A stretch of DNA of 64,000 nucleotides from Lineus longissimus. Lineage: Eukaryota > Nemertea > Pilidiophora > Heteronemertea > Lineidae. A model generated the notes under the pieces. It worked only from the letters and a program-made list of their open reading frames with translations. It was not told the origin of the DNA and searched no databases. Position numbers and translations under genes: made by a program. Positions 1 to 59,645 of this stretch are shown here, piece after piece (position 1 is the first letter of the stretch; each line of letters opens with the position of its first letter). The stretch covers positions 10,170,501 to 10,234,500 of the forward strand of contig NC_088315.1 in assembly GCF_910592395.1 (NCBI RefSeq). Direction: 5' to 3'.

Positions 1-492
1 ATGACTCGTCATTGACTGAGTGGTCATCATGACTATCTCGGTTTTTACTTTTGCCTTTCCCTTTGGTGGGGTTTGTCAGTGCCTTGGCTGGGGGAACATG
101 ATTCCGTGGCCTGTGAGTGTGATTTGTGCAATAGGGGAGGCCTGAGTCACTAAATGTAACGCCTCCGTTTCATAAAAGTAGCCTATTACAAATAGGCCTT
201 AAAGGTATAACTGAGTGGCACCAACATGTTGGTTTAGAAGGTCTAAGTATGCATTAAGACAACAATTAATTTAAAAAAAATCGATTTCAAGCAATGTGGT
301 TCGTTTTCTTTCAACTTTTATTCCCAAACCACGCCCATCCAATAAAAACGAAAATCTTCGGGAATCTTCGGGAATCTTCGGCGATGACGACAACAAAGGA
401 AGACCGAGCGCTCTCAGGAATATCATGGCGGACGGTGCAGTGCATTTGCATGTGAATAGTTTCTTGAGATATCATGCAAATTATCAATTGAT

Positions 493-708
493 ATGGTGAA
501 TAGATGTGTTTTGTTCGGCTGTAATGCCACGGCCGATGCATCGAGTGCTCTTTCGAAGCATTCATTCCCGAAAAAACCAGCAATTCGACGTCAGTGGGTG
601 AAGTTTGTACAAACAACGAGAGTGGACTTCGTGGATCCGAAACCGACCAACACTTCGGCCGTAGTGTGTTCAAAACACTTCACTGACGATTGTTTTGAAG
701 TACCATGA
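493..708 (+). CDS. THAP zinc-finger exon of a transposase
   Basis: The 71-residue reading frame starts MVNRCVLFGC and fits the C2CH THAP pattern: C5, C10, then C59 and H62 (CSKHF), with the conserved Trp at 35. THAP domains are sequence-specific DNA-binding zinc fingers found in P-element and Kolobok transposases and in domesticated host proteins. The frame stops right after DDCFEVP, before the usual C-terminal AVPTIF motif. Either the exon ends at a weak GT donor near 700, or the domain is truncated. The C-terminal exons of what looks like the same transposase lie on the same strand at 5050-5651, beyond the inserted Gypsy element. The THAP call is firm; membership of one gene with those exons is inferred. 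Confidence 0.75.
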   Translation: MVNRCVLFGCNATADASSALSKHSFPKKPAIRRQWVKFVQTTRVDFVDPKPTNTSAVVCSKHFTDDCFEVP

Positions 709-746
709 TTATTGTTTGCCCAGAACGAAAGTGGTTTTCAGGGAGC

Positions 747-849
747 AACTGCAAAATACCCGGGACACTCTGTGCTAAATGATAGGAATGTGTACATAAT
801 GTACAGAGGGACAGAGTGTACATACTACTGTCCCGGCTATTCTGCAGTT
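747..849. repeat. Imperfect stem-loop with 21-bp arms
   Basis: The arms at 747-767 and 829-849 are inverted copies with two mismatches (aactgca-aatacccgggaca type). They lie between the THAP exon and the Gypsy insertion. Function unknown; possibly a remnant of the deleted transposon interior. Confidence 0.6.
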
Positions 850-874
850 ATCGAAATGTTATTGTGTTGAATAC

Positions 875-1017
875 TGTTAATTGATTGAACTCGGAGCAGG
901 ATTCAACCAGAAGCGTCTGCTTTATTGAGCATGCGCATTAGGCATATAGACGTTACATAATACATGAATAGGTGGCAGCACCAGATGGTGTGTAGATTCA
1001 ATTAGATTATACTGACA
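875..1017 (-). repeat. Gypsy 3' LTR (143 bp)
   Basis: TG...CA boundaries. It matches 4617-4752 except for a 7-bp insertion near 889-895 and one substitution close to the end (gaca against gtca). Confidence 0.92.
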
Positions 1018-1105
1018 TCCCCCTTTGTTTCTCTTCTAAGAATATTATGTAATATCATATTTGATAATCCTGTTGAATTTTATATTACCACACTTGTGCC
1101 TAATG

Positions 1106-3325
1106 TCACTGTAAGTCCAATAGTCTATAATATGTGGTTTTGTGAATGAATGACCATTTATCGGCAAATTCCTTGAATTTTCTACTGGTGTATTGCGCAC
1201 CATTGTCAGTTAACAACGATTCAGGTATGCCATGCCTCGCGAATGTTTTCTTGATGTGATTTATCACTGTCTCTGAAGAAGTGTCCTCTAACATTTCGAC
1301 TTAAAAAAATCCGGAGTATGCATCTACTATGACTAAATAGTCCTTGCAATGAAAGTAGAACAAATCACTAGCTGTTTGTTGCCATGGTCTGGTTGGAGTT
1401 TCATTCGGTTTCAATGGCTCTTTCTGCTGTTTGCGCGAGAATTTCTGACAGACTCCGCATTTCGATACTTTATCGGTAATATCGGTTAGCATACCTGGCC
1501 AAAATAGCAATTCTTTTGCTCTGCGCTTACACATTTCTGTGCCTAGATGTCCTTGATGAATAATGTCTATCATTTCAGATCTGAGCGAACGCGGTACAAC
1601 TATGCGGTTGCCTTTGAATACCAGTCCTTCAGCTACATGATATTCGTCTTGGTCTTGCCAATATGGACCTAATGAATTGTCCAGGCTTCTTCTATGTTCA
1701 GGAAAACCATTTCTGATCGTTTCCTGTAGTTTCTGAAGTTCAGTGTCCTGAGCTGTTGCGATTTGAAGCTCTTTTAGTTTCTTATCGGATACTGCTAATG
1801 AGCTAATGAGCAAATGAACTTGAAGATTCACTTCTCTTTCCATGTCACTTTTCTCTTGACCGGGAAGATTGGCTCTCGATAGTGTATCTGCTACTACCAA
1901 TTGTTTTCCTGGGACATGCACTAACTTGAAGTTGTACTTCTGTAGTCGCAGTAGGAAGCGTTGTATCCTGGGTGGTGCTTTGAATAGCGGTTTTTTCAGA
2001 ATTGTTTCTAGCGGCTTATGATCAGACTCAATGAGAAAGTCGCGCCCATAAACATATTGGTGAAATTTCTCACATGCAAATGTTGCGGCTAATGTTTCCT
2101 TTTCAATTTGCGCGTAATTTTGTTCGCATGATGTTAAGGCTCTGGATGCGAAAGCAATCGGGTGGCGTTCCTGTAGCAATGCGGCTCCTATTCCGTCTTT
2201 TGACGCGTCGGCTATGACAGTCAGTTCCTTCTTAGGATCATAGTAACTTAATACTGGAGCTTCGGTTAGCTTTTGCTTTAACAGTTCAATTGCGTTTCTT
2301 TGTGGTTCATCCCAATGCCATTGAGTGTCCTTCTGGAGTAACTCGCGTAGCGGTGCGCTGATCTGCGATAAGTTCGGTATGAACTTTCCAAAGTATTGAA
2401 CCATGCCAATGAATCTCATCAATGTACTTTTATCTTCTGGATGTGGCATTTTGATGATCGCCTCTACCTTTGTCGGATTAGGTTTTACACCATTTTGTGT
2501 AAGCATGAGTCCTACATAAATGACCTCTGTTACACCTACGATGCATTTGGCTTGCTTGAGTTTGAGTCCTACTTCGCGAAGACGATTAAGAACTTTGCGC
2601 AATCTGACATCGTGTTCTTCTTTAGTATCTGCATATACTAAAATGTCATCGACTGATTTACAGCATCCTTCCAGTCCTTCCAATATCTGTGCTAGTATCT
2701 TCTGAAACACCTCAGAAGCTGAAGATATACCAAACGGTAAACGTAGAAAACGAAATCTACCGAAACACGTGTTGAAAGTTGTGAGTCTTGAACTCGCGTG
2801 GTCAAGCTTAATGTGCCAAAACGAACTCGATGCGTCGAGGACAGAGAAATATTTCGCGCCTGCTAGTTTTGCACTGATATCATCTGCTGTTGGTAATTCG
2901 TAATGTTCACGTCTAATTGCTTGATTAAGCTCTTTAGGATCTAAACATATTCGCAAACTACCATCCGGCTTTTCTACGCATACAATAGGATTGACCCAAT
3001 CGGTGGGCTCATCCACGCTTTTCATAATGTTCTGTTCTTGCATTTTTGACAGTTCAGCTTTAAGTCTAGGTTTTAAAGCTTCCGGCATTTTCCTTGGCGG
3101 ATAAATCACTGGATTCGCGTTTTCCTTGAGACTTATGTGATGATCAGGGACTTTGAGACAACCAATCCCATGAAATAAATCTTCGTATTCGTCAAGAATA
3201 GCTTGAGATTTGCTATCTGATTTCGCAATGCGTTTGGGCTGATTGGTTTTCCCAATCGTAGTTTCGGTTTCAGTTTCAGAACCATTGTTAGTGCTAGATC
3301 TCACATCGTAAATGCGTTTCAACAA
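1106..3325 (-). pseudogene. pol: Gypsy pol: reverse transcriptase, RNase H, truncated integrase
   Basis: The 674-codon frame contains reverse transcriptase (fingers and palm, with SVDDILVY at the YxDD position near 2650), RNase H (TVIADASKDGIGAALL) and the integrase HHCC zinc domain (HQGH ... CGVC). An in-frame TAA at 1301-1303, after DAYSGFF, interrupts integrase. The same frame resumes immediately and contains LLTDNGAQY, then ends near 1106 before the catalytic Glu and the whole integrase C-terminus. This is therefore one nonsense mutation plus a deletion, not a frameshift. There is no ATG at the 5' end; pol was probably translated as one polyprotein with gag-pro. Confidence 0.92.
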
Positions 3326-3327
3326 TC

Positions 3328-4584
3328 CTAGGTGAACACTTGACTTTGCTCCCAGAATAGCTTCAGTTTTGACATAGCTACGATGAATTCGATTTGATAA
3401 TCGCGGTTTTTATGCGTACATGTGAGACTACACTTGCCACGAACTTTGATTTCCGATCCGTCGTATGTTGACAATTTCACGTTCCTGACTTGTGACAACG
3501 CTGGCGCTTTCCGAATTTTACGAAACATGTAATACGGAATTACGTTAGCCTGTGCTCCCGTATCTATTTTGAATAGCATTTTGTCGCGTTTTGGACCTAT
3601 TGGCAGTTGTACATGCCATTGCGCTTCATTATCATGCATATCTGATGATTTCGGTTTTGAATTGACTGTTCCAATGAACAATTGTTCGAACTGTTGCAAG
3701 TTGTCGTCATCTTCTTCATCGTATTGACATACTGCATGAACACTTTTCCCGAATTTTCCTTGATGGCTACGTTTCGTAGATCGACAAAATCTTTCGTAAT
3801 GATTTTTCTTTCCACAACCCCGGCATGATTTTCCGTATGCAGGACATTGTTTGGGAAGATGTTGCCTACCGCAATTTCCACAGTCATTGCCTTGACCATG
3901 AAAATTAGACGTTTTTGAGTCTTTGGACTTGGTTCCTGCCGACTTTTTCGACCACTTGTTGATTTTGTTTACACTCGAAGTACCCGTATGTACACTGCCA
4001 TGTACACGGCTTGCACTGTTGCTTACGTTCGCACTTGCGGACGTCGACGAACTCAGGTTTTCTAGATGTGATTTTGACAGTTCTGCGGCTCGGCAAATGT
4101 CAATAGCTTTGGATAAATCTAGTGTTCTTTCTCTCAGGAGTCTTTCTCTGACATTGTTTGACCTAATACCATAGACTCTTCGGTCTTTTATCAATGAATC
4201 TGAAAGAGTTCCGTACTCACAAGTTTTTGACTTGTTGCGGAGGTCCGTGAGAAAATTATCGAATGTTTCGCCGTCCAGCTGTATTCTTGAATTAAATACG
4301 TGCCTTTCGTAGGTTACATTCTTCTTCGGAGTGCAATATTGTTCAAACTTCTCCACCAGTGGATCGTATTTGTCTTTTTCTGCGTCGGTAAACACAAAAC
4401 TTGTGTAAATTTCGACGGCTTCTTCTCCGATCGAGCTGAGCAGGGTCGCGCACTGCAGATCCTCTCCCTTCGATCGTAGATCTGTGGCAATTCGGTACCA
4501 TTCGAATTGTTGTCGCCACTTTCGCCAATTCTCGGCGGTGTTACCTTCCACTCTAAGTGGTTTTGGAGGTTTGAGACCTTCCAT
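3328..4584 (-). pseudogene. gag: Gypsy gag-protease
   Basis: 418 codons from MEGLKPPKPLRVEG at 4584, about 30 nt inside the leader. The product has a capsid-like region, two CCHC knuckles (CGNCGRQHLPKQC and CRGCGKKNHYERFC) and an aspartic protease (KIDTGAQANV). It ends out of frame with pol. In the other frame the ILGAK motif that normally follows protease can be read at about 3340-3358 and leads straight into pol. A single-base indel there is the simplest explanation; a programmed -1 shift is less likely, because gag-pro-pol is then continuous. Confidence 0.9.
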
Positions 4585-4616
4585 TGTGGTTTAAATCGGC
4601 CAAACTTCTGACACCA

Positions 4617-4752
4617 TGTTAATTGATTGAGCAGGATTCAACCAGAAGCGTCTGCTTTATTGAGCATGCGCATTAGGCATATAGACGTTACATAATACAT
4701 GAATAGGTGGCAGCACCAGATGGTGTGTAGATTCAATTAGATTATACTGTCA
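4617..4752 (-). repeat. Gypsy 5' LTR (136 bp)
   Basis: TG...CA boundaries, followed on the minus strand by the tRNA-Leu primer binding site at 4605-4616. Close identity to the other LTR implies a fairly recent insertion. Confidence 0.92.
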
Positions 4753-5049
4753 AATACTCAGGTGATGTGGGCATGTACAGTACATGGTTATATAGCCTAC
4801 ATATAAGCCAGGCCTGACATTGACATATTTAGCATATGCATAGGGCCTTGCACGCAGGCAGGCATGGTCTATCAGTCTTGTGTGATGTGTCGTATGACTT
4901 CGTTTAATGGTTATGACATTTCCACTTGGCACTCAACTATTGTACCCATCAATGTAGTTTTTTAAAGACTACATAAGCACAAGCATACATAATTATGCCA
5001 AACTGACCGCTCACATTCACATGTTAATATGTTTCTACTTGTAGGCTAG

Positions 5050-5651
5050 TTAGCTGGACTCCACTTCAATGAGAACAGTGGCAGGGACCAAGCCAAACTC
5101 GAGAATGGGGCAGAACAATTCAATGTTTTATTCCCCAAATTCAAGAAGGGAGGCTTTTCAGTGAAACGTGTTCTGACCAAGTACACATTCAGTAAGTCTG
5201 TATTATTTTGTTCTAAAAAAATAGGCCAGGTGAAGGAATCTACGATGTTCCCCAGCGGATGAGTACCATTTCCAAAGTAATACTACAGGGTGGTCCATGA
5301 AAAGTGTCCCTAGCCAGTCTTTCAAGTGAATGGGGAAACGCTTCAAAACATCCTGTAATTAGAATGTGCTGGCAGTTTTCAAATGAACACATATATGTAA
5401 TTTGAAATATTGACCAGCCCCTTTTCCTAGGTCACCGCTGAGTAATTGCTGTTCATCACCACAACTGTCTTTTTTCAGACTATGTGACTGAACTTCAGAA
5501 AGAGGTGTGCAGAATCATCCGAGCTGGAGAAATCTGTCAGAATGAAGAACCCCCAGCCCCACTTTCCAGCGCCTTCGAACATCTGGATAAGCAGGAAGCC
5601 ATCAACAGATACCGGAGTGGAAAACGCTACGTGGAGCATGTGGGGAAATAA
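5050..5651 (+). CDS. C-terminal exons of a THAP-type transposase (two exons)
   Basis: Exon 5050-5191 follows an AG acceptor and ends at a canonical gtaagt donor (5192). Exon 5479-5651 follows a pyrimidine tract and cag, and ends in TAA. Joined, they give 104 codons with no internal stop. The first part reads LAGLHFNENSGRDQAK, then FPKFKKGGFSVKRV. The second contains YVTELQKEV and a proline-rich stretch, and ends RYVEHVGK. From memory, the HxNEN...RxQA and FPKxKKGG blocks sit at the C-terminus of a family of THAP-domain transposase-like proteins in aquatic animals. The catalytic core that should precede it is absent from this window. The tail-to-tail neighbour is the ballast gene, 288 bp away. 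Confidence 0.68.
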
Positions 5652-5939
5652 CTTGTGTTGGACTTCTAGATTCCAGTGTGAACTGTATGTGGTGGGAGCA
5701 TATTTGGTTTGACGATCATCTATCACAAATTGCATGCCTGGCCTTGGGCCTAGTCATCATTGATTTTGTACAGATCCTGTTTAACAAACATAACATCACC
5801 AGTATTGGCATTTTATATGAGCAATGTATTTAAAATTTGAAACTTTAAAATTTTGTACAGATTAACAAATACATGCAACTGAACACAATTTTTCTTGTTC
5901 GTCAATGTCATTGTACTTCATAGTCCCTATAGTCAGTGT

Positions 5940-6336
5940 CTAGTCAGAGTCCCCGTGATGAAAACCTCTGAATTCAGCATCCTCCTCGAGTACGGGGGGC
6001 ATGAACTGTGCCCTTGTCCGACTCACTGCACATGATGGCAAAACCACACGGACATCCCGCCCCAGAAACCCCCAACACCACTTCGCTAACTGTCTGTAGC
6101 TTATGTGCCGCATCCTCTTCTCATACGGCCCATCATATGCTGCCCGACCATACTGCTGTCTGTATTGAAGCCAGGCCACCTGCAGGACATGATGGTCCAG
6201 GCAAACTGGGTGTTGGATGATACATGTTGTCCCCTCGGCCTCTATCTCTGCCATCTTGTCTTGGACCCTTTGGATCTCGTGGCAGCACGTACATTCATCT
6301 TCTTTTTGCTGGATCTGGCAGTTGTCGCAGTGGCAC
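5940..6336 (-). CDS. P2X7 C-terminal ballast-domain protein, last exon
   Basis: The exon begins after a tttcag acceptor (6337-6339) and runs to the TAG at 5940. It has the features of the P2X7 intracellular ballast domain: CHCDNC, then ECTCCHE, VCLDHHVLQVAWLQYR, YRQLAKWCWGFLGRDVRV and VVLPSCAV. In P2X7 the clustered cysteines hold zinc and the domain binds guanine nucleotide. No P2X channel domain or membrane segment is present, so this is a soluble stand-alone version, as known from many invertebrates. Reading phase requires two bases from the previous exon. The gene is transcribed towards the transposase exons and lies inside the TTAA element. Confidence 0.85.
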
Positions 6337-6751
6337 CTGAAATGATAGCAATATAGGCCTGTATTTATCATATCAGTGACAGTGACTTTGTAGTCATGAG
6401 CTTAATAAACAGTGTCATGGTAGCAGTACATGGTCGACCTTATTCACGAAGTAAGTCCACGCAACGTTAATAAGAGTACACAAATCTTTTGTGAGTTGGG
6501 ATTGAACAAAAGGTCACCCGCAAACGGACAATAGCTCATGCACTGCGTAAAGTCATGAGGCCTTTGTGAATATGGTCCCTGGTATACGGTACCGGTAGAT
6601 AGTTGGCGATGGTACTGGTAGGTAGGTAGGCTCTTCATTTATAGTGTTCAGTGGGTGACAGTGCTTGAAAATAATGGCCTCCGTCTCCAACATGCTGGTC
6701 ACGGGTGTCTAGATAAAACAATAAAACTGTAATATTCCATACCAGTCAAGA
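6337..6751 (-). other. Putative intron of the ballast gene
   Basis: No open frame of interest. A gtatgg donor-like site sits near 6740, but after the in-frame stop of the upstream exon, so its use is doubtful. Confidence 0.35.
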
Positions 6752-7045
6752 TTATCTCGCCTCGTTGGCCGCTGTTCTTCTTCTGCTACTACAGCTGCCT
6801 GCGCATGTATGAACATGCTGATGCTGTACTTCCACTTGTTCAGGTACGGGTTCAAACATGTAGGGTTCTATCGGTCCAGGAACTGACTCTGGATCCCCAA
6901 CATCGCCGAATAACTCATCATCATCACCACTATCGTAATCGGCAGCAATAAATTGGCTGAGAGCAGACGATGAAGTACTGCAATCGCTACAAATTGATGA
7001 AGAATCGCTTTCGCTGTATGCATTCGCCATGTTTGTTTGGTTCTG
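6752..7045 (-). CDS. Acidic N-terminal exon of the ballast-domain protein
   Basis: The open frame is rich in Ser, Asp and Glu (MANAYSESDSSS, then DYDSGDDDELFG). It contains IEPYMFEPVPEQ, resembling the PYxFEP motif that precedes ballast domains in invertebrate proteins. The best start is the Met at about 7030 (aacATGgcg context) rather than the upstream Met at 7075. The frame stops at 6752. I could not find a donor that joins in phase with the exon at 6336, so an extra small exon or a mutation may lie in 6337-6751. The right end of the TTAA element is only about 230 bp upstream, so the promoter must be short. Confidence 0.6.
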   Translation of the reverse strand, partial: QNQTNMANAYSESDSSSICSDCSTSSSALSQFIAADYDSGDDDELFGDVGDPESVPGPIEPYMFEPVPEQVEVQHQHVHTCAGSCSSRRRTAANEAR

Positions 7046-7579
7046 ATATTCCTGAGATGCCTGAGATGACGTCACTTCCTGTCTGGCCGACGAGTGATTT
7101 TCGTTTTCGCAGGTGGCGGGATTTACAATTTACAAAAGCTGATTGTGCTGAACCTGCTAAATCAATCATGTTGGAATATCAGTGTATACCTTATTTAGTT
7201 AGTAAACTTGCCATTATATAAAAAGAATGGTTTAGAGAAATCAAAAGCCGTTATACCTTTAAATACAATGTAGGCCTACTCGTAAGTCGTATGAAAAATG
7301 TAGGCCTCGGACTACTTCTCAATCTGTAACGTTGTACGATATTGTATCGCCACTTTTTACAGGGGTCTAGCGTCATGACGTAAATACTAAATGGCCTAGC
7401 CTACCGCAACCTATGAATATAAGTAAATTAAGACCTATGCTAAGTGACTTGCCTTCATCCGCTTGAAATCCCAGTGATTTTCTTCCTCACATTCACTGTC
7501 AACATTCTCCGTTCCAGGATCGAGGTCGAGCAGGAATCCCATCTCCTGTTCATTTGCATCTTCAGTTGGGTATCAGGCT

Positions 7580-7803
7580 GTTTCGCTACATTGCCAGTTC
7601 GCTACAAGTCGTTTCGCTACATGTGGCGGTCGTTTCGCTACATGGTAGGTCGTTTCGCTACATGGGTGGAGTCGTTTCGCTACATGATGGGTACGGTCGT
7701 TTCGCTACATGGAGGACGTTTCGCTACATGGGTGGAGTCGTTTCGCTACATGGATGTAGGTAATTTCGCTACATCGTAGGTCGTTTCGCTACATGGGTGG
7801 AGT
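7580..7803. repeat. Tandem TTTCGCTACATGG subrepeats, left arm
   Basis: About ten units of 18-24 bp with variable linkers. Long open frames across it (repeating SFRYMGG-like peptides) are by-products of the repeat. Confidence 0.93.
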
Positions 7804-8245
7804 CATTATTTTTTCAAGTTTGTGCTAAACTCCGGGCTAAATATTTGTTGTGAATTTAGGGAAAAAAATGCTCGAGTATACTGCAATCAAGATGTACAGA
7901 CCGGGGGAGCTGGCGGTACGTACCCATAGGTCTTTGCGGTAGTCTCGCGCGTACCGGATATAACCCATCAAGCTTTTCTCCTTCAGAGAAATACTGCGTT
8001 GCGCTCAAGTGCCTTATAAGGCTGTGAACAAAATTAACGTTCGACCAATGAGAAAGCCACATTACCCTGCATACGAGGTTGGACGCGTGATCACTAAATG
8101 ACAAGTAAAAATAGAATCAGACCACATGTTTCTATATGTCAGAATGCTGCCGTTTGCGCTGTAGTACACGTGTGTTGTCCAAATTTTCGATTTCAAGCAA
8201 GTTTAAGGCCAACCTCGTGTCCACCAGACTAATGCATAATTGGCA

Positions 8246-8286
8246 GTTGAGCGCAACGCAGTATTTCTCTGAAGGAGAAAAGCTTG
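8246..8286 (+). repeat. Extra copy of a 41-bp inner-arm segment
   Basis: Matches 9609-9649 in the same orientation (ttgagcgcaacgcag...). It suggests a past rearrangement inside the foldback interior. Confidence 0.75.
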
Positions 8287-8991
8287 ACGCAAGGGCCCAA
8301 CGCGCCGCGTAGCGGCAAAAAAGCGAAGCTGGCAAAACATTTATAACGGGTCACCGTCACTTATTATTGGACTTATAGCGCATTTACGGGGTTGCAACTA
8401 TTTTGCTTTATAGTGTCACCAGGAAAGAAAAGCATGCGACCTAACGCCGATCTATTTGTATAAACTGATAATCGGAAGGTATATAGTAGGAAATATCAAT
8501 AAAATAATCATTCCATGTCGTCTTTTGAGGGCATTTTTGATTGTAAAAAATATATGTGTACGTCACCGGAGTCTCTGCAATGATAATTTTATCACAGCAG
8601 TCTCGCGCAAGTAGAAGTTCTTTACCTATTAGTTCTTCACTTATTAGTCTCAATGTCTGGCGCAAAGCCAGACGTTTTCCATTACGATTTCACTATACGA
8701 TGTTTGACAAAAAGGAGCAGTGCGCGAGATATGCTAATGAGCAGACTTCCCTCGCTTGAGTTTCGGAAGAATGTTCCATATCGCGCTAAGCTGACCACTG
8801 CTGACCATGACAGACGTGCATTGGACTGGTACAGGTTGGAACTGAACATTGAATATGCTGGTGGTGACGCTTTCTGATGAGAAGTTGGTCGTGACTGATG
8901 CAGTATCCTTGGACTTGTCCACAGCATCGTTCAATCATTGCTCTCTAAGCTGCCTTGATTCTGTACTTACCCAAATACTGAGACCAAATGC

Positions 8992-9055
8992 CTGTTGACT
9001 GTGCTTTAAGAGAGACTGGCGCCATGCCTAGTCTCTCTTAAAGCACAGTCAACAG
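8992..9055. repeat. Perfect 26-bp inverted repeat with 12-nt loop
   Basis: Arms 8992-9017 and 9030-9055 are exact reverse complements, with loop ggcgccatgcct. The size fits a hairpin precursor RNA or the centre of a tiny palindromic insertion. No coding frame crosses it. Confidence 0.9.
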
Positions 9056-9151
9056 ACACCAACCCCCTCAGACTCAGAAACCACAAACGCCCAACCCTTC
9101 CTGCTACCTTAATACTTCTGGATAGGTTATATCTTGATAGGTTATAACCCA

Positions 9152-9385
9152 AAGGCCTCCAAATCTGCGTTGGAGTGCGTTTGAATGACCCCTGTCAATC
9201 AATAATAAAGTACGAACACGGATACGGACGACGAGCGAGCCAACGCGAAGGCCTTGCAAAGGCCTCCAAATCTGCGTTGGAGTGCGTTTGAATGACCCCT
9301 GTCAATCAATAATAAGTACGTATACACGGATAGACGATTGAGCGAGCCAACGCGAAGGCCTTGCAAAGGCCTCCAAATCTGCGTT
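9152..9385. repeat. Tandem repeat of about 110 bp, about 2.2 copies
   Basis: Units begin aaggcctccaaatctgcg and end with gagcgagccaacgcgaaggcc. The copies differ by small indels near cggatacggacg and cggatagacg. Confidence 0.85.
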
Positions 9386-9810
9386 GAATGAAGCGACCGG
9401 CAAAGTTTAAACGTGGCATCAGCGTACCAGGTCTTTGCTTTACTCAGGAGGTGGATTTGTTCATCTGTTGCGAAGATGAAATGCCGGCGATCTCGGACAT
9501 TAATGTCAGCTTTAAAACAGTTGCCCCTCGCGTTTGCATTGATGTCCGGCCGAAATGTGGCTTTCTCATTGGTCGAACGTTAATTTTGTTCACAGCCTTA
9601 TAAGGCACTTGAGCGCAACGCAGTATTTCTCTGAAGGAGAAAAGCTTGATGGGTTATATCCGGTACGCGCGAGACTACCGCAAAGACTTATGGGTACGTA
9701 CCGCCAGCTCCCCCGGTCTGTACATCTTGATTGTAGTATACTCGAGCATTTTTTCCCTAAATTCACAACAAATATTTAGCCCGGAGTTTAGCACAAACTT
9801 GAAAAAATAA

Positions 9811-10042
9811 TGACTCCACCCATGTAGCGAAACGACCTACGATGTAGCGAAATTACCAACATCCATGTAGCGAAACGACTCCACCCATGTAGCGAAACGT
9901 CCTCAATGTAGCGAAACGACCGTACCCATCATGTAGCGAAACGACTCCACCCATGTAGCGAAACGACCTACCATGTAGCAAAACGACCGCCACATGTAGC
10001 GAAACGACTGGTAGCGAACTGGCAATGTAGCGAAACGACAGT
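9811..10042. repeat. Tandem CCATGTAGCGAAA subrepeats, right arm
   Basis: Inverted counterpart of 7580-7803, with matching unit order and linkers. The only clear differences are small indels and a few substitutions. Confidence 0.93.
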
Positions 10043-10560
10043 AGTTGGGTATCAGGCTGTTTCGCTACATTGCCTTCAGTTGTACCGGTAGGAATGTGGT
10101 CTTCTATTGAGAAGCAGTTGACTGGCCCACAGTCAATTAGACCAACATCATCATTATCATCATCATCATCTTCCTCCTGAACGTTGATTGGGGCCTGCAA
10201 ATGGAAAGTGTGACTGACATCAACCAATCTCCAATCTGGACCGTGGACTGGAGAAGAATTTGAGTGGTGCTAGAAAGTAAGTAGACAAGCAGAATCACTA
10301 AAAATAAAGCCTATTCAGAGGTTAAAATAAAAAAATCAGAAAAAAAAATTCCTGGGGTAGCAAGCAGTTGAAGCAATTCGTTAGGTTCGTTAAGTTTTTG
10401 TGAATTGGCAAAGTCACTACACAGTACAGACATATAGTGGACCTCCAAAGTGAGCAGCCTTGTATGAGTATCTTTGGATTGAGTAATACAATTTTCATAA
10501 AAATTTCATATAGCTATTGAGCTAAGAATGATGGTTTTTCATGACTTTCCATCAATCTTT

Positions 10561-13585: not shown

Positions 13586-16500
13586 TTATGTAATGACTTG
13601 AATTTCCTTGAGATATCCATATGTAACAGATGTTTGCTCTGCAACTTTCTTGATCCTTTCAATCTCCTTCCCTCTTGCAGTAGTGGTCTCAGTTCTGACA
13701 ATATGACAGAGCCGGTCTTCATTTACCATCACATGAGGGTGAAAGGCAAAGTCCGGATCACCTCCAGAATCTCCTGCTGTCTTGGCCCGCGACAGAGCAA
13801 CGAACAGAGCGCCAGGATTTCTAGACTAGAAAGCTCTTGTCCCGGGATGAATGACAATGTAACGGTATGCTTCATTATCACCAATTGTCATGCCTTGGCA
13901 TCAATGAATGGTGGTTCCCCAGCCAAGTCTCAGGGGAATTTGTTTTCGCCAACATGAATGGCACGGGCATTCCATTAGACGCGTGACAGGTACAATTGGG
14001 ACTATTTTTGTACCAGAAATGTAGGGTGGTCCACTGTACCTGTCGAATTCTACCATTACAACATCAGGTAATCCCATTTTGGGGTCTTTGCCATCTGTGT
14101 GGACAATATCTCTGACAATGCCAGTAGAACCGTTGAATAACCCATAATTTACAGCAAGATTTCCTGTTAACATCACTCTTGCTTCTTGACACAAAAACAG
14201 TTCAGGTAGGAGCCCTCCTGCCTTCTCGCTTGGGGTGTTCTTATGGACTCCTGTGTTCAGTGCTTTAATTCTTGCTATTGGGGCGGAACAGTTGGCTTCA
14301 AGAAGCTTCATCTTATTGTGCTCCCATTCATTGGCATGGGTTGGAAACACAAACAACCCCTTGTCACTCATTCTCTCCAACAAATCTTGTCCATGTGTTT
14401 TCTTCAGTGTGTCTCACTGGAAAGCTTGCAGCCATTTTGCCTGTTCTCTGGTGACGGTGTAGTTCCTCAGAGCATTTAAAGTGTCTTTTAGTTGGCCGTC
14501 CCCATCTTTTTGTCTTATTATAGTTTTTAGAATCACAGCCTTGTCAAACTCCTGCCAGGCAAGTGCACCATGAAGGCATGCATTGACCTCACCTCGTGGT
14601 TTGTATACTGGATGATCACAGACAGGGGGTAGCTGGACATCATCACCAAAAAAGACAACTACCGGAATACCACCCCACGGTTTGCCAGAGTTCAGTCCAT
14701 TTTGAATTCCACAGGAACAGTGGTATTCCATCCATCCGAGGGTTTTGCATCCAACTAGTGATCGTTCATCAATGAGAAGGACATGTAATCCTTCGCAATG
14801 CTCTTGAAGGGTAGATCCAGTCTTTCCATGTGGTGGCGTCATGTCCTTCGTCGAACTTGATCCTATGGGAACCTTCAGAAAGCTGTGGATTGTGGTGCCT
14901 GAAATGAGATTTGCACTGTTTCCTGTTGGCCCAAGAACCTGCACAGCCCTGTTTTCCTGGAAAAGAGTGCGAATCCCTTTCACCAAACATTTGATCAAAA
15001 ATGATTTCCCTGAACCTGCTGTACCTGCAACAACTAACCTTAGGTATGAGGTGAATTCCTGAGGATCTGCTTTGTAGCGGTAAAGAGTGCTCATAACTAA
15101 GTTGTATGCAAATTTCTGATCCTCATTCATCATATCCAAATCTACATCAGGAAGCACTATATTATCATTTGCTCTTTCCTTCCCTTCTTCAGACGAGATA
15201 TTCTCCAGCCAAGTAATCCCAATGTTTGATGGGTACTCCGTGGAGGTGACTCCCCAGTCATGTTCCGGTCCTCCATCATTGTACTTGAAGTCAGTTACCA
15301 CATCAAAATCGACTTGTGGTCGAAGAAGATCCATCCAATCAGGCTGTTCAGCTTCGTCCTCACAAACAACTTTTTCCAACTCTGATGCTTTTCTGTGCTC
15401 GTATTGTCGTGCTCCCTCTACAAAGGTTGGGCAGGACTCCATGTTGAGAAACTCCAGCATTCTCTCCTGCCATGATAAATTTTCATCCTTGATGTCAGGA
15501 ATTTTTCTCCAGTTCGGCCAGTGGAGCAACAGCATATTGCGACCGTAATCTTCAGAAAGTGGCCATGTTGCCTTCATGCTGCCAGCCATCACAGGAACAC
15601 GTCCTTTCCTTGAGATAAAATTGTAGAATGAACAGTTGTCTTCGTTCTTTCTGGCGAGGTACTTGTCCAAGGGTGTACTTTTTGTTAGAGTTTCACCTTT
15701 TTTTCAAGTAACCTCGATCCAGTTGTGCTCACTGACAGGAACTGATGGCTGGATCTGTATAGAGGCAACCTGGACAACTCGTATGTTGCTTCCATGGCTG
15801 AAACATCCCTTGTGACACTATTCATTAGAAGTTTCGTACAGATGGTCTTCGATGTGCTCTCGTTGTCCGTGCAATTAACCAGGTCGTTAAAAAGAGCAGA
15901 TGCTGCTCCAGTTGGCTCATTGCTTTTGCAGGCGTAGCTACAAATATAGCGTCGAACGCCAACAATCTCATCAACAGATGGATGTTCTGGGTCACTGTGC
16001 GAGAGAATAATTGAAATGTCTCCATTTGCCCGCCATGCTTGAGTATGGATTCATGAGTGTTGGACAAGGACAGGGTGATCCCGCTCCATCTCAAGTCTCA
16101 GGATATTGTGTCGGTCACGTGTTATTGCAGGCTGTACCCGCAATAACTTACCTGGCTCGGAGATAGAACCAAATCCCATCCGACACTCTCTCTCCTTCTT
16201 CCCCTTCAACAGCCTCAGACAATAGTCTGAGCATCTGTGCAGGTTGACCCTGTTACTGAGGAGGAGATGATCCTCCAATAGACTATCCTGGTTTTGGCTG
16301 ATGTCACATAGCAATTTGAACAGGGGGTTTGTGTCCTCTGGAGGCGAGGGTGCTGTGCCCTCGGGTGGGGGCCAGAGGTCCTTGCAAGGATTACCCTGCT
16401 CGTCCTTGCCTGCTGGATGCATGGCTGTCATGCCAAATATGCGTTCAGCCCAGTCTGATAGTTCCTTTGCCGTATCTTCCTCACTAAGCTCATTTTGGAT

Positions 16501-18876
16501 GGCATCGAAGAGCAGTCTATGCGGTTGCTGGTCATTCCGCCAACAGAGGCCATGCCAATGAATCATGCCTCTGCTCTTGGCAAATTCTTGGCGATACCAA
16601 TATGCCTCCACCCCAAAAACTTTTTTCATTACATGCTTGAAATACGACTGAGTACGGAGGTCGAAGTACTTTCCAACTATGTGACTGTTTTCTTGCAGCG
16701 CAGCAAAAAGTTGGGATTTGTCATCTAAATCCTGAACTTCGCCTTTGGCCTCCAGGATATAGTCATGTAAAAGTTTCCTCAAGGGTTTGAAATAAAATTC
16801 GGCACAACTGCCGGTGCCAAAAAACTTTGGAAGGCCCTTGCCCTGGGTGATCTGGTACTGGACGAGAGATTCCAATTCCTTAAACCGTTGGGCCCAGTAC
16901 TGAGAGGTTCCCCTAAGTCCAGCACTGAAGTAAAGCACTTTTTCACCAATGGCAGTGTCGCCATTTTTTATTTTATCCTTGAGATCTGCCACTGTCAGGT
17001 GGTCGTCTCCTAAATGTTGACGGACAATGTAAGTTGAACTATCTAGGACTCTCTTTCTAGCAATCATATTGTGGACTACAAATTTAAAATAGTGGTGTCC
17101 AGAAAATCGGCCGTCCTTAAACCATAACAGGTGTTCTGCCCAGTCACTCAAGGAAGTGCATGTGTTAGGCCGGTTGCTATGAAAGTCCCCTGTTCCATAA
17201 GGGAAGAGATAGGGAAAAGCCAATGTGAAGAAATTTCTTGTGGTAAATTCAGAGACGGGTTTGTCATCTCTCGTCGGCCATGGGATGGTGATTGTTCCTC
17301 TCCGTGTCTCTGAAACTTCCACATCTTCTCTTCCCACTGCTTCTTTCACAACATCTTCCACCTTCTTCCGTATATCAGTGGGTGGGTCCGGAAGCAAAAT
17401 GCCTGACACAGTTTGACCATCATCATCAGCAAAACCTTCGGGACAGGTTTGATCTGGAGCAGGCCCTTCATCTCTTCTGTGTTTTGCCTTTGAAGAAAAT
17501 TCAATGGTCTGCAAATTTTGCAATTCACCATCTGCTGGTAGAAGATTGAGGCGCTCCTCACTTATGATTATGTCATCATAGGCAGGATTATTGGCCTTGA
17601 GCCATTTTAGAGCTGCCTCTACTCTGCTTCTAGATACTCTGAAAGCTTTACTTGAGTCATTTTTCCCCTGACGTCGTACTCTTATGATATCGATTTCACT
17701 TGGAAGTTTAGGTAGAATTTTGCCAACTTCATCGATAGCTTGAGGGAACGCCACACAGTGCCCACTTGATGCTAGACCGCCATGTTTCATCAGATGTACA
17801 TTTATGGATGGGGAAATCCTGGAGATAAGCTGCTGTTCCACCGTTGTTAGTTTTGATAACTCGGGTGGCATTTCTCCCGGATCCATGTTGTTATCTGCTG
17901 AAAACATTTTCACATCACTTTTTTCAGTAGCACATCTTCTGCATACATTTTGTGAGTTCGTCTTCATTTGCAGTCTTCTCTCCTGGCATACTGAGCATAA
18001 AGTAAACTTGTATGACATTTGCTCAACCTCAAATGCCCTAATACCTGCCATAGCATTTTGAAACGTCTTGTCAGGCAAGTTTTCTGTGGTGTCTTTCAAC
18101 TCCTCTTCATTGTCTTTTTCTAGATGCAAGGATTCGCGTTTTACCTTCAGGCGCCGGCTGTTGTTCCGCCGTCTTTTTTTCTTTGCACTTGCGCTCTCTG
18201 TCTCAGATGGCTCCAGGGGAACAATTCCCAATCGCTTTGACTGCCTTCTAACTTCTGGTGAAGAGTTCTTGTTTACCTTAGTGGAAGTGATCTTGGTTGG
18301 TACAGGTGGAAGAGCTGTTTGCTCTGGCGGCATCAAAATGCTGTAGTGTTGTTCTCGTAGTAAGAGAGTAATGTGCATCAGTGCGTCATCAGTCTCAATA
18401 GTTTCGTTGTAATAAGTGGTCTTTCTGGTACCATCATTATGCAACTTCCTTCCTTCCAATAAGATGTTGAAGGAACATTTCAGCAGATTTGCTGCAGCTT
18501 GGACTTCACATGATGTTGCATATCCACCCCTTTTAAGCATCGTCTCCTGATACTGCTCTTGACTTTTTATTCCATGGCATACTTCAACCATGGCTTTGTG
18601 CTCTTCCCATGTGCTTAGAATATACCCACATATCAGTGTTCTGTACTGCTTATGGCCAGAGGGGTTCCTTTGTCCGTGTATAACATCATTCAGGCAGTGA
18701 AAAAAGCAATTTCCATCGCCGGGAACATTAACGATTTGGTATTCCTTTATAGCATTGGCAATTTCACTGGTTCGATGGCTTTGTTCTTCCTGGTTTGGCT
18801 GGGTCTGAGGCTCCTTCCTTCTCATCTCACCATCGCTCCGCTGTGGAGGTATATTGTAACAGTGGTCCCAAATCAT
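13586..18876 (-). pseudogene. Helitron RepHel polyprotein with N-terminal OTU domain, decayed
   Basis: A single decayed coding sequence can be followed from 18876 to a TAA at 13586-13588. In order: an OTU cysteine protease (PGDGNCFF with Cys57, and EQHYSIL supplying the His); a basic linker; a DUF6570-like region with Cys pairs (CSVCQ, CRRC) and the PPELSKLT block; a Helitron-like N-terminal region; a HUH Rep motif (MIHWHGLCW, near 16550); a two-Tyr motif (YICSYACK, near 15940); and a PIF1/RecD-type helicase with Walker A GTAGSGKS, DERS, GDDVQLPP and GALFVALSRAKT. Breaks: in-frame TGA at 16051-16053, a +/-1 shift in the A/T run 15698-15704, TGA at 14414-14416, TGA at 13901-13903 and TAG at 13826-13828. 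The Met at 18876 or one about 17 codons further in could be the start. Confidence 0.92.
13586..18876 (-). mobile_element. Helitron, termini not resolved
   Basis: The extent given is the coding part only. I looked for the 5' TC and 3' hairpin-CTRR ends and could not fix either. The SGNH-like gene and the seven-unit array downstream could be inside or outside the element. Confidence 0.75.
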
Positions 18877-18899
18877 TTTCAGTGTCTTGACTCTGATTC

Positions 18900-20954: not shown

Positions 20955-23900
20955 GCGTGAATAGTTTGAGGGTAGCGCGTGCGTTTGAGTTAGTGCGCAT
21001 GCGCTTTCTACGGAAAATTGAAATGTTGTGAACGAGTGGTTTCAGGTTTCGGTTTCACGGTAGGATTTTGACATGGAAACGGGGCAATAGACATGAAGAC
21101 CAAGGTACTTTCAAGATTATTGCATTATTAATGGAACCAGACCGTCGACATATTGTCACACCCCATGATATTGACGAAATCGTCGTCGAAACGGGCAGCC
21201 CCGGACCGATCATAACTTCAAGGCTGGTGAAAAGGTCAAATTCTAGTAAAAAAACAAACTCAGAACCTACAGAACTTTTAAAACTGAGTACCAACTTGAG
21301 CCCTACCTTAATGTTCTAAAAAACAGGGGGTTGTTTTCAAAAATGGCTAAGTTTCGCCTTAGCAATCACAACCTACTCATCGAAAGAGGTAGACATTTTG
21401 GTACTCAGTTAGAAAAGCGGCTCTGTCCTTTTGGGTGTAACGTTATTGAGGACGAGTTCCACTTTTTTGCACGATGTCCCTCTAACAATAAATTAAGAGA
21501 CGAGTATCTCACAAATATAAATTTTTATAAATGTAGTCAATTATTTTCAAATCTGGATTTTATTTCTATTATGAGTAGTACTGACAACACGACTATTTTA
21601 GATACTGCTATTTTTATCTCGAAAGCCTTTGAAGAAAGACAAACAGCTCTTCAGGGGCACTAATAAATAAGTCATTGTGGTCTTATTTTAATTACCATAT
21701 ACATGTAACTTTCTTTTAAAAATATTTTTGTATGTGTTGTATTTGTATATATGTGCTGCCATACTGTCTTATCCTTTGATAGTTGTGCAATAAATTGAAT
21801 TGAATTGAATTGAATTGGTGAGCGAGAAGACTCGTAGGGGGGGGGGGGGTATATAGTTAGGATGATGCCATCATGGCAGTTGACCGAAGAAGCAGTTGGC
21901 TAGCACACAATGTCAATGATTGATGGCGAGTAGTTGGTGGGTGGGAGAGGGGGGATATAGTTAGGATGATGCCATCATGGCAGTTGACCCAATAGACGCT
22001 GTCGCAGTAGGCCTATAGAAAATAAGTGGGGAGAATGTGGGAAACTAAACACAACAGGAGAAGGATAGGTATTTTTGCCCGGAGATAAGCATAATGATCC
22101 CAAGACCCAAGTGTAATTAAGATTTATATTCTAATTCAAAAAGACCTCAGCCGACCCCCCCCCCCCCCCGCCCTGAATAGTTTGAGGTCTCACTAGCCAG
22201 TGGTGATCAGGTGTTAATCTTGAAGTTATAAGGCATAGAGGTGAAATTTTTCAAATTTGCGTTATACAGGGTGTCTCATGCATTGTGCTACATCAGTCTA
22301 TGCATGACTGTATGTTCAAAGCACGATTTCTTCGCGGAAATAGAAAAATAATCTCTGGCAGCGATGCAGCTTGTTGTTTAATGCATTTCGATTCGCCCCA
22401 GCGTATCGTTACACTTTGATTCGGCCCTGTTTTGACGAAATCTTCAACCGAACAGCGGCATCTCTGCGTAAACATCGTAGCGTCCCGCTGAATTGTTTGG
22501 AAAAGAAAATCTCTCCCCAGGTAAATTGCTGTGCATTAGCGTATACGATTCGCGTGCAAAAATGTCACCTGGGTGTGGAGGTTTTCTGGTTCCGGGTCAA
22601 GTTTTTTTCGTTGATGGTATACACAATTCCTAAAATACACTGCCATCTAGTGGCAGAACCACAGGAAGTGATGCAGAGTGAGGCAGGTAGGTCAGCAACC
22701 TGCATAGCGTGTAGAGTATTGAACAATAGCTATCACTGAAATGGATCCAAATAACTCTGTTGTGCGTGGTGTTTGGCTAGTCTTGCCACAGTATATGTAG
22801 GGGAATTAATGGGTTTCATGTCAGTGAACATGATAAGTGATAATAATTGACCAATTAAATAATGAGGGTAATATGAGGAAGGCTCAGGCCTTGATAGGGA
22901 GCTCTTCGTTAATAGGGCTGGTAAGCGAGAAGACTCGGTAGGGGGGGGGGGGGGTTATATAGTTAGGATGATGCCATCATGGCAGTTTACCGAAGAAGCA
23001 GTTGGCTAGCACACAATGTCAATGATTGATGGCGAGTAGTTGGTGGGTGGGAGAGGGGGGATATAGTTAGGATGATGCCATCATGGCAGTTGACCCAGTA
23101 GACGCTGTCGCAGTATAGAAAATAAGTGGGGAGAATGTGGGAAACTAAACACAACAGGAGAAGGATAGGTATTTTTGCCCGGAGATAAGCATAATGATCC
23201 CAAGACCCAAGTGTAATTAAAATTTATATTCTAATTCAAAAAGACCAACGTCGCCTAGACATACAGTCATGCATAGACTGATGTAGCACAATGCATGAGA
23301 CACCCTGTATAACGCAAATTTGAAAAAATTTCACCTCTATGCCTTATGACTTCAAGATTAACACCTGATCACTTGGTCAAACTTGGTCAGATGTATTCTA
23401 CAATACAAGAGATATGCTATTCAGAAATGTATTGGTTTGTGTGAGAGTAACGTACTGCCGAGTCTACAGCCGCTGGAACAGGGGTATGCATGAAATGACG
23501 TCGCGTCATTTTTGGAGGTAGGTAGGCCTGGCCTCCGCACCGGCTTGTGAGACCTGAGGGTAGCGCGTGCGTTTGAGTTAAGTGCGCATGCGCTTTCTAC
23601 GGAAAATTAAAATGGCCAGTGTTGTGGACGAGTGGTTTCAGGTTTCACGGTAGGATTTTGACATGGAAACGGGGAAATAGACATTGAGACCAATGTACTT
23701 TCAAGATTATTGCATTATTAATGGAACCAGACCGTTGGCATATTGTCACACCCCATGATATTGACGAAATCGTCGTCGAAACGGGCAGCCCCGGACCGAT
23801 CATGTTGGTGCGCTTGAAACTACGGAAAAGTTAGCAGACGGAAAATCTTTTGCGGAATTTTGCCAGTTCAAAGCACGATTTCGTCGCGGAAAGAGAAAAA

Positions 23901-25735
23901 TAATCTCTGGCAGCGATGCAGCTTGTTGTTTAATGCATTTCGATTCGCCCCAGGGTATCGTTACACTTTGATTCGGCCCTGTTTTGACGAAATCTTCAAC
24001 AGCGGCATCTCTGCGTAAACATCGTAGCGTCCCGCTGAATTGTTTGGAAAAGAAAATCTCTCCCCAGGTAAATTGCTGTGCATTAGCGTATACGATTCGC
24101 GTGCAAAAATGTCACCTGGGTGTGGAGGTTTTCTGGTTCCGGGTCAAGTTTTTTTCGTTGATGGTATACACAATTCCTAAAATACACTGCCATCTAGTGG
24201 CAGAACCACAGGAAGTGATGCAGAGTGAGGCAGGTAGGTCAGCAACCTGCATAGCGTGTAGAGTATTGAACAATAGCTATCACTGAAATGGATCCAAATA
24301 ACTCTGTTGTGCGTGGTGTTGGGCTAGTCTTGCCACAGTATATGTAGGGGAATTAATGGGTTTCATGTCAGTGAACATGATAAGTGATAATAATTGACCA
24401 ATTAAATAATGAGGGTAATATGAGGAAGGCTCAGGCCTTGATAGGGAGCTCTTCGTTAATAGGGCTGGTAAGCGAGAAGACTCGGTAGGGGGGGGGGGGG
24501 TTATATAGTTAGGATGATGCCATCATGGCAGTTTACCGAAGAAGCAGTTGGCTAGCACACAATGTCAATGATTGATGGCGAGTAGTTGGTGGGTGGGAGA
24601 GGGGGGATATAGTTAGGATGATGCCATCATGGCAGTTGACCCAGTAGACGCTGTCGCAGTATAGAAAATAAGTGGGGAGAATGTGGGAAACTAAACACAA
24701 CAGGAGAAGGATAGGTATTTTTGCCCGGAGATAAGCATAATGATCCCAAGACCCAAGTGTAATTAAGATTTATATTCTCATTCAAAAAGACCAACGTCGC
24801 CTAGACATACAGTCATGCATAGACTGATGTAGCACAATGCATGAGGCACCCTGTATAACGCAAATTTGAAAAAATTTCACCTCTATGCCTTATAACTTCA
24901 AGATTAACACCTGATCACTTGGTCAAACTTGGTCAGATGTATTCTACAATACAAGAGATATGCTATTCAGAAATGTATTGGTTTGTGTGAGAGTAACGTA
25001 CTGCCAAGTCTGCAGCCGCTGGAACAGGGGTATGCATGAAATGACGTCGCGTCATTTTTGGAGGTAGGTAGGCCTGGCCTCCGCACCGGCTTGTGAGACC
25101 TGAGGGTAGCGCGTGCGTTCGAGTTAAGTGCGCATGCGCTTTCTACGGAAAATTAAAATGGCCAGTGTTGTGGACGAGTGGTTTCAGGTTTCACGGTAGG
25201 ATTTTGACATGGAAACGGGGAAATAGACATTGAGACCAATGTACTTTCAAGATTATTGCATTATTAATGGAACCAGACCGTTGGCATATTGTCACACCCC
25301 ATGATATTGACGAAATCGTCGTCGAAACGGGCAGCCCCGGACCGATCATGTTGGTGCGCTTGAAACTACGGAAAAGTTAGCAGACGGAAAATCTTTTGCG
25401 GAATTTTGCCAGTTCAAAGCACGATTTCGTCGCGGAAAGAGAAAAATAATCTCTGGCAGCGATGCAGCTTGTTGTTTAATGCATTTCGATTCGCCCCAGG
25501 GTATCGTTACACTTTGATTCGGCCCTGTTTTGACGAAATCTTCAACAGCGGCTTCTCTGCGTAAACATCGTAGCGTCCCGCTGAATTGTTTGGAAAAAGA
25601 AAATCTCTCCCCAGGTAAATTGCTGTGTATTAGCGTATACGATTCGCGTGCAAAAATGTCACCTGGGTGCAGAGGTTTTCTGGTTCCGGTCAACCGGGTC
25701 AAGTTTTTTTCGTTGACGGTATACACACACACATT
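20955..25735. repeat. Tandem/scrambled array of a 1547-bp repeat
   Basis: Two near-identical units start at gtaagcgagaagactcgg: 22921-24467 and 24468-25735 (the second cut short). A third, older set (20955-22920) has the same blocks rearranged. Block A (gtagcgcgtgcg... to gaccgatcat) is at 20970-21226. A LINE fragment follows, then the poly-G block at 21817-22152. A 118-bp piece at 22198-22315 is inverted relative to 23259-23376. Block B is at 22316-22740. Each unit carries a 12-nt G run. Blocks A and B have short open stretches (for example PDRWHIVTPHDIDE) but stops separate them. No transposase seen. Confidence 0.85.
21227..21816 (+). mobile_element. 5'-truncated non-LTR retrotransposon (3' end)
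   Basis: An open frame from about 21253 to the TAA near 21663 reads KLRTYRTFKTEYQLEPYL, then FRLSNHNLLIERGRHFG, then CPFGCNVIEDEFHFFARC. This is the typical C-terminal tail of invertebrate CR1/L2-like reverse transcriptases, with a Cys/His cluster. A short 3' UTR follows and ends in a gaatt repeat (21790-21815), the usual tail of such elements. The 5' junction falls inside block A of the 1547-bp repeat at gaccgatcat. It is a dead fragment lacking the polymerase domain. Confidence 0.82.
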
Positions 25736-44806: not shown

Positions 44807-45406
44807 ATGGCGGAACAAGAGATGATGTCACTAATTAAAAAGCTTCGATCTACGAATGCGGCAAATCTGACAAAACGGTGCAACAAAGCAATACGTGCTA
44901 TTGAGGAGCAACGTTCCAAAGCCACTTTGAGGGACTGTGCCGAAATTGTTCAAGCCGATTTAGACACCCTGAAGGGAACACAAGAACTTTATTTGTCGCT
45001 ACTGACAACACCGTCTGACGTCCAAAAAGCGGAAGACTGGATGAAGGACAGATTTGAACATGCTTGTCAAATTACGCGTGATATCTCAACCCAATTGTTA
45101 TCTGATGACCTTCAATCTCACACCACCGCTGGTACCAGTGACCTGTCTGAATCTGTCTCGTCGCATCACAGCCTTGGTAAGCCTTACGAGACAACTCGGG
45201 ACCAACTTCAGAGGGACATTCGAATCGTCCACAAACAAGCGTCCATAAAGGCAGAGATGAATGCCTCCAGACTACGAGAAGAGGTAGAGCTGGGAAAGGT
45301 GAAACAAAAGGAGATTGAAGATTGGTTGAAGGAACACAAACCACCACCAGACGTCCGACCGAAGACAGCCGTGCAAGCTACAGAAGTTACCGCAGCAGAA
45401 CGATGA
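44807..45406 (+). CDS. gag: BEL gag, N-terminal part
   Basis: 199 codons from an ATG in strong context (accATGgcg). The product is mostly helical and charged (MAEQEMMSLIKKLRSTNAAN, then KGTQELYLSLL), as in the coiled-coil N-terminus of BEL gag proteins. It ends in a TGA that overlaps an ATG of the long frame, and the two frames overlap by 85 nt in the -1 relation. BEL elements usually have one gag-pol frame. So either a single-base indel occurred around 45322-45406 or a -1 shift is used. No obvious slippery heptamer was seen. Confidence 0.82.
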   Translation: MAEQEMMSLIKKLRSTNAANLTKRCNKAIRAIEEQRSKATLRDCAEIVQADLDTLKGTQELYLSLLTTPSDVQKAEDWMKDRFEHACQITRDISTQLLSDDLQSHTTAGTSDLSESVSSHHSLGKPYETTRDQLQRDIRIVHKQASIKAEMNASRLREEVELGKVKQKEIEDWLKEHKPPPDVRPKTAVQATEVTAAER

Positions 45407-55696: not shown

Positions 55697-55968
55697 TACA
55701 AGGCACAACACCAGTGACACCTACATCGGTATAGGCGTCAAATTATTGAAGAATAAAAACAAAAAGTTGACCCTGGGATGGCGTGGGTTAATACCAAGGT
55801 AATCAAGATAAATATTGATTTGAATTATAGAGTAGTATTCAATCTTTCATAAAATATTGATTTCAGTTCTATGGTCCCCCGGGTATTTTCAGGAGGGCAG
55901 CACCAGTAAGAGCTTCATTTCTGGAGACAAGCAGCTTGGAAAGTGAGAATCTGAGAACTGTTTTTTTT
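55697..55968. repeat. Truncated copy of the HNH-side repeat (R1)
   Basis: Matches 58620-58872 and 62768-63030 (ggcacaacaccagtgacacc ... agaatctgagaactgtttt). It is joined at 55969 directly to transposase sequence, so the nuclease gene and the transposase C-terminus have been deleted here. Confidence 0.9.
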
Positions 55969-58076: not shown

Positions 58077-58144
58077 CTTCTGCCTGTTGCTGGATGAACT
58101 CCTTGTGGGGTGACAACATCTTTGACGCTTGATATGTTTTGCAT
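58077..58144 (-). CDS. Predicted first coding exon of transposase, copy 1
   Basis: Minus-strand ATG at 58144-58142 gives MQNISSVKDVVTPQGVHPA, ending AGAAG at a gttaag donor (58076-58071). It is identical in frame to 62229-62296. The best in-phase acceptor is ttaag shortly after the stronger cag of the next exon; the splice choice is unproven. Confidence 0.5.
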
Positions 58145-59602: not shown

Positions 59603-59645
59603 CGAATTAACCCCTTCCTGGCTGATGCATACATTTTAAACCAAC

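Follow-up and report, generated by a model that had tools for sequence, protein, structure and literature searches.

Kol0 elements of the Kolobok superfamily encode, besides their transposase, a second protein, KolX, which has a ballast fold and was reported to match the ballast of P2X7 (main text of Kojima & Bao 2022, PMC9587614). The same text states that P2X7 originated when a P2X4-like gene was fused with KolX, and regards nanor as a likely further domesticated KolX. It describes Kolobok elements as having a 4-bp TTAA target-site duplication and 5'-RR...YY-3' termini, the termini of piggyBac elements being different, and mentions a possible KolX-like protein in piggyBac elements, from which most of the seven conserved cysteines are gone. 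A THAP domain is usual in Kolobok transposases according to the text of the Xenopus Kolobok paper (PMC6004289). That P2X7 captured a stand-alone ballast domain had been proposed earlier (main text of Rump et al. 2020, PMC7016195), and among the matches listed in the open-access literature we found no further title linking the P2X7 ballast and Kolobok. Here we analyzed a 64-kb stretch of DNA from the nemertean Lineus longissimus (the window), in which positions 203-7258 form an element flanked by TTAA, its 9-bp inverted ends being perfect. We conclude that this element is very probably a DNA transposon of the Kolobok superfamily and Kol0 type, in the form of a dead, non-autonomous copy. It carries the remnant of a THAP exon, two further exons on the same strand and a convergent KolX gene, which encodes the ballast domain (P2RX7_C in Pfam) and has a counterpart in the L. 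longissimus protein record P0001 (LOC135492574). The features of the element are, in window coordinates:

199-202, no strand: left TTAA, one copy of the target-site duplication (exact match)
203-211, plus strand: left 9-bp terminal inverted repeat, AGGTATAAC (exact match; shuffle estimate in the text)
493-708, plus strand: remnant of the THAP-domain exon (PF05485), with its ATG at 493 and an in-frame stop at 706-708
5050-5191, plus strand (the THAP strand): 3' exon A (LAGLHFNENSGR...), an open frame with a GT donor, assigned to the transposase C-terminus by position only
5479-5651, plus strand: 3' exon B (YVTELQKEVCRIIRAGE...), with an AG acceptor and including the stop codon
5940-6336, minus strand: KolX/ballast exon (PF20478) with the cysteine motif and the stop codon; the acceptor AG adjoins 6336; residues 107-237 of P0001
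6752-7030, minus strand: KolX 5' exon, placed from the reading frames, encoding an acidic N-terminus with a PYMFEP motif; 6830-7030 corresponds to residues 1-67 of P0001
7250-7258, minus strand: right 9-bp terminal inverted repeat, GTTATACCT (exact match)
7259-7262, no strand: right TTAA, the other copy of the target-site duplication (exact match)

The boundaries of the element were already proposed in the initial annotation, made from the sequence alone, and the TTAA and 9-bp inverted end on each side proved to be exact. The TTAA copies at 199-202 and 7259-7262, read from the flanks of one site, and the AG...CT termini with their perfect 9-bp repeats are those of Kol0 elements of the Kolobok-1_XT type, with which the locus also shares a KolX of ballast fold (main text of PMC9587614). 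By eye the inverted repeat extends no further than 9 bp. We found 2 matches to the 13-mer made of TTAA and the 9-bp end in the 64 kb, both exact, and none was added when 2 mismatches were allowed. Perfect TTAA-bounded 9-bp inverted pairs spaced by 2-12 kb occur twice in the real window, versus a mean of 0.095 per dinucleotide-shuffled window, with at least one such pair in 17 of the 200 shuffles. The other real pair (TCTTGAAGT; 22214-24910, with its two members starting at 22214 and 24907) lies within a longer inverted repeat and probably marks the arms of a different element. Taken by themselves, the ends at 203-7258 are suggestive; the enclosed THAP and KolX sequences make them convincing. 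The shuffle rate is too high to neglect, other transposons crowd the region and the ends are known from one copy, all of which would suit a normal host ballast gene lying beside unrelated transposon debris with coincidental inverted ends. We nevertheless consider this reading very unlikely, because the inverted pair tightly encloses both THAP and KolX and combines TTAA with RR...YY ends of the Kolobok type. In addition, KolX is published as a part of Kol0 elements (main text of PMC9587614), and the ballast gene of the window is disrupted in its frame. Chance inverted ends were consequently rejected.

The KolX gene runs from 7030 to 5940 on the minus strand and its product matches the Pfam family PF20478 (E 1.3e-7; 32.1 bits, cut-off 23.5), in agreement with the P2X7 C-terminal domain that had been annotated there. 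It is convergent with the exons on the THAP strand, and 288 bp separate the stop codons at 5651 and 5940, exactly the tail-to-tail arrangement described before. Of 202 candidates in a protein search with KolX, 16 were retained at an E of 0.001 or lower. For eight of these 16 the species is named: two come from L. longissimus, two from holothurians and four from sea urchins. No KolX relative was found in viral_contigs (0/49) or genome_contigs (0/82), nor any relative of the 3' exons in viral_contigs (0/4 pattern stretches), as is expected because the element is an animal one. When the profile of the 16 proteins was run against the PDB, P2X7 was the only match at E up to 0.01, with four distinct sequences at E 1.5e-8 to 9.5e-8. 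We also modeled the structure of P0003, a nemertean paralogue of canonical type, from 15 sequences with P0015 left out. The mean predicted local distance difference test score (pLDDT) of the model was 62.4, with block means of 73-90 over residues 111-190. In the fold search with this model (best 50 of 70 rows) P2X7 filled the first 14 rows, with E values from 1.2e-3 to 1.9e-2 and a probability of 1.00, whereas the row after these stood at E 3.4. A model of P0001 itself, built from 16 sequences, had a mean pLDDT of 51.6; in its Foldseek search P2X7 took the top four of 21 rows, at E 0.53-1.0. In view of its low pLDDT and weak E values we set this model aside as uninformative.

The resemblance to the P2X7 ballast (PF20478; PDB 6u9v, 8tr6 and 9e3m) thus concerns the sequence profile and, through the paralogue P0003 and not this copy, the fold; the 'seven' zinc cysteines are recognized by pattern. 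Cysteines 123, 124, 144, 151 and 208 of P0001 are present in all 16 aligned proteins, cysteines 107, 109 and 112 in 10, 11 and 10 of them (of 11, 11 and 10 rows that are not gapped there) and cysteine 121 in 10 (15 rows with a residue). Alignments of P2X7 with KolX pair the cysteines of CxCxxC, CI(T) and PSC, and the pairing of the middle cysteines depends on gap placement, two alignments being in disagreement. By eye, the place aligned with the invariant C151 is occupied by L in human P2X7. Counterparts of rat R546, H547 and R578 are found in 13, 11 and 16 of the 16 KolX-type proteins, and P0001 keeps all three. In contrast, V stands at the position of rat R574, and the protein of the window lacks any channel or membrane part. 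Beyond deuterostomes only R546 and R578 are reported in the main text of Rump et al. (PMC7016195), so that an R-H pair at the places of rat R546-H547 in a protostome protein is a small addition. A second small addition is the motif PYxFEP, which lies in the acidic N-terminus of nine of the 16 proteins (P0001, P0003, P0007, P0008, P0010-P0013 and P0016; eight with F and one with Y, as PYQYEP). The other seven records are 123-174 residues long and have no acidic N-terminal region. Neither addition changes the main picture. Zebrafish nanor and the other stand-alone ZCD proteins are similar in being short, with a variable N-terminus and a C-terminal zinc-cysteine domain (main text of PMC7016195). 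They differ in that no transposon is mentioned with them there: words that start with transpos, mobile, Kolobok or THAP have 0 occurrences in the main text of that paper. It does contain an Ixodes fusion spelled TAHP, which probably stands for THAP.

The cysteines and the ends also bear on a piggyBac-type element, which would target TTAA as well and possibly encode a KolX-like protein. This assignment is extremely improbable. The piggyBac versions have lost most of the seven conserved cysteines (main text of PMC9587614), whereas the window protein is cysteine-rich; RR...YY ends, here AG...CT, are those of Kolobok, unlike piggyBac (same text); and it is in Kolobok transposases that THAP is usual (text of PMC6004289). 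We rejected piggyBac membership on the AG...CT ends and the cysteine pattern, since the characters of piggyBac are not those of this element.

Both genes of the element are damaged. On the KolX side, the 5' exon frame that starts with MANAY reaches a TAA at 6749-6751, ahead of the canonical-looking donor. A different frame reads ...RRDNLDW into that donor and would yield the WCxC start seen in seven of the 16 aligned KolX-type proteins (P0003, P0007, P0008 and P0010-P0013). Consequently the N-terminal and ballast exons are out of frame if this donor is used. The 237 residues of P0001 are nonetheless all encoded, residue for residue, by three minus-strand blocks of the window (6830-7030, 6592-6708 and 5943-6335), and on this match we take P0001 as the annotation of the window KolX gene. 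The three blocks bypass the frame break and the domain cysteines are retained, as they would be if the host used LOC135492574, with a new middle exon, as a domesticated KolX, the third co-option after P2X7 and nanor. Yet the record may be an automatic prediction that spans the disrupted frame, and the tryptophan that precedes the first CxC in seven of the 16 proteins is missing from the P0001 model; we regard such a domestication as a quite remote prospect. Similarly, it would be a long shot to suppose both that the broken copy has become a working worm gene (the KolX N-terminus, a new stretch of 39 residues and the ballast, spliced around the frame break) in a co-option like those of P2X7 and nanor, and that transposase exons travelling with KolX are what lies behind the 'ancestral synteny' that ballast genes and two markers show across animals (main text of Rump et al. 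2020, PMC7016195).

On the transposase side, the THAP exon that had been annotated is indeed present. Its match to PF05485 has an E value of 8.9e-12 and covers profile positions 1-61 of 87 only, so that the domain, of the kind usual in Kolobok transposases (text of PMC6004289), is truncated. A 391-residue L. longissimus protein, P0017, has a nearly complete THAP domain (profile 1-86), and 68 of its first 71 residues are identical to the window THAP piece. The C-terminal transposase exons of the initial annotation fared less well. Two exons on the same strand, 5050-5191 and 5479-5651, are joined by a GT-AG intron as claimed, but their identity as transposase was not confirmed, as they match no family in Pfam or NCBIfam (the NCBIfam search, with 4 proteins, gave no match). 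A nearly unchanged version of the exon B peptide, differing in small ways, is contained in P0018, a different gene model of L. longissimus. Relatives of THAP and exon B amounted to two of 162 candidates, both L. longissimus gene models (P0017 and P0018), and this recurrence indicates a putative repeated family.

The DDD/E core with its C/DxxH motif is absent in this copy. A large insertion occupies the place between THAP and exon A, and the space left for a catalytic core is only about 709-874 and 4753-5049; none of the six frames of 4757-5049 is free of stops, and the part at 709-870 is far too short. Two features lie in this interval:

742-852, no strand: foldback of about 110 bp just past the THAP remnant, boundaries set by eye
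875-4752, minus strand: long terminal repeat (LTR) retrotransposon that interrupts the element; its Pfam matches are to a reverse transcriptase, an RNase H and an integrase zinc-binding domain

The retrotransposon, which from its domain order we take to be of the Ty3/gypsy type, has LTRs at 875-1017 (143 bp) and 4617-4752 (136 bp), between which the only differences are a 7-bp gap and a single base; the two LTRs are marked by a 124-nt repeat pair of 99% identity. The retrotransposon is surrounded by a 5-bp duplication, AATAC, and subtracting it leaves 3173 bp of element by coordinate arithmetic. The foldback would form a hairpin of -41.4 kcal/mol over 741-860 (RNA parameters; a figure without shuffle control) and is possibly a small insert resembling a miniature inverted-repeat transposable element. 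The initial annotation had overlooked the retrotransposon, and also that the transposase core is lost, that the THAP frame stops early and that the frame of KolX is broken. The window copy therefore differs from Kol0 in having no catalytic core, disrupted frames and an LTR retrotransposon inside. We read it as decayed and non-autonomous because the core cannot fit, the THAP frame stops early and the KolX exons are out of frame.

Several observations weigh against assigning the element to Kolobok. When 2 mismatches were allowed in the 13-mer, shuffles contained 1.93 matches on average and 57 of 100 had at least 2; as this count is not above shuffle chance, the number of 13-mer matches is by itself weak evidence. 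The ends come from this single copy, and we detected no other copies of the element in the 64-kb window by blastn (E up to 1e-3, queries 199-874 and 4750-7262). P0001 alone gave a best E of 0.0016 against the P2X7 chains of the PDB, with three more rows at 0.08-0.1, and among the best 50 of 70 rows of the P0003 fold search no match reached E 0.001. Exons A and B are tied to a transposase by position only. P0017 has no Pfam match except THAP. A full-length transposase was absent among the two of 162 candidates and among the two of 5742 retained with P0017 as query; these last were the query protein and a zinc-finger protein from Polyodon, a weak match at 42% over 25% of P0017. The word THAP, moreover, has 0 occurrences in the main text of Kojima & Bao 2022 (PMC9587614). 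Since this copy has no DDD/E core and P0017 offers only THAP, Kolobok membership rests on the ends, THAP and KolX.

We infer that in an intact family the THAP-DDD/E transposase would bind the ends through its THAP domain and move the element by cut-and-paste into TTAA. KolX would be a zinc-stabilized protein of ballast fold whose acidic, probably unstructured N-terminus bears PYxFEP. Its most likely role is to assist the transposase as an accessory partner, perhaps by helping to assemble the complex, to direct targeting or to regulate the reaction, and we put the chances that KolX is an accessory factor of transposition in any form at about even. As judged from its exons, neither gene of the present copy is predicted to make its normal product by canonical splicing. 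To move, the copy would need transposase provided in trans by a full-length relative, and only altered splicing could yield a KolX-like protein from it.

In the initial annotation the stand-alone ballast domain was proposed to be a possible transposon cargo gene. Our findings agree with this in that the domain would be part of a transposon protein, as published. The word 'cargo' is probably wrong, and an accessory gene is suggested instead, because in the Kol0 group KolX is treated as the regular second protein (main text of PMC9587614). The further idea that a transposon supplied the P2X7 tail agrees with our findings and with the conclusion of Kojima & Bao, although our own data do not show the direction of the transfer. 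This central inference is not new, because it is already the conclusion of Kojima & Bao 2022 (main text of PMC9587614). The locus provides a case, found independently, in favor of the published view of the P2X7 ballast domain as a transposon protein; Nemertea are apparently not named among the Kol0 hosts in the main text of that paper, and the window adds one nemertean case.

Another element of the window, at 55701-63248 (about 55.7-63.2 kb), resembles KolobokP, a group of the same superfamily for which L. longissimus is named as a host (main text of PMC9587614). KolobokP differs from the element at 203-7258 in its long terminal direct repeats and His-Me finger nuclease, and KolX is attributed to the Kolobok0 lineage (same text). 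The KolobokP-like element has a Mutator-type transposase open reading frame (ORF) at 59646-61562 on the minus strand (PF20700, E 7.7e-43), a His-Me finger nuclease ORF at 58961-59602 on the plus strand (PF05551, E 3.9e-9) and direct repeats at 57433-59058 and 61586-63248 with 97% identity. A quick scan of it for TTAA-bounded inverted ends returned only three 6-bp matches, none starting with RR.

Other mobile elements surround these two. An inverted-repeat element at 7564-10074 adjoins the Kolobok copy; its arms, 7580-8063 and 9554-10036, are 98.6% identical, and it contains a minisatellite at 7607-7804 with a unit of about 20 bp (GTCGTTTCGCTACATGG...). A Helitron-type element at 14414-18897 on the minus strand encodes Helitron_like_N, PIF1 helicase, DUF6570 and an OTU-like protease in two ORFs. 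On the plus strand, a BEL/Pao-type retrotransposon at 45319-50859 has a long ORF of 1846 codons, and the segment 26931-32227, with large overlapping ORFs and a recombinase-like ORF of 289 amino acids, has by eye only the look of a DIRS-type retrotransposon.

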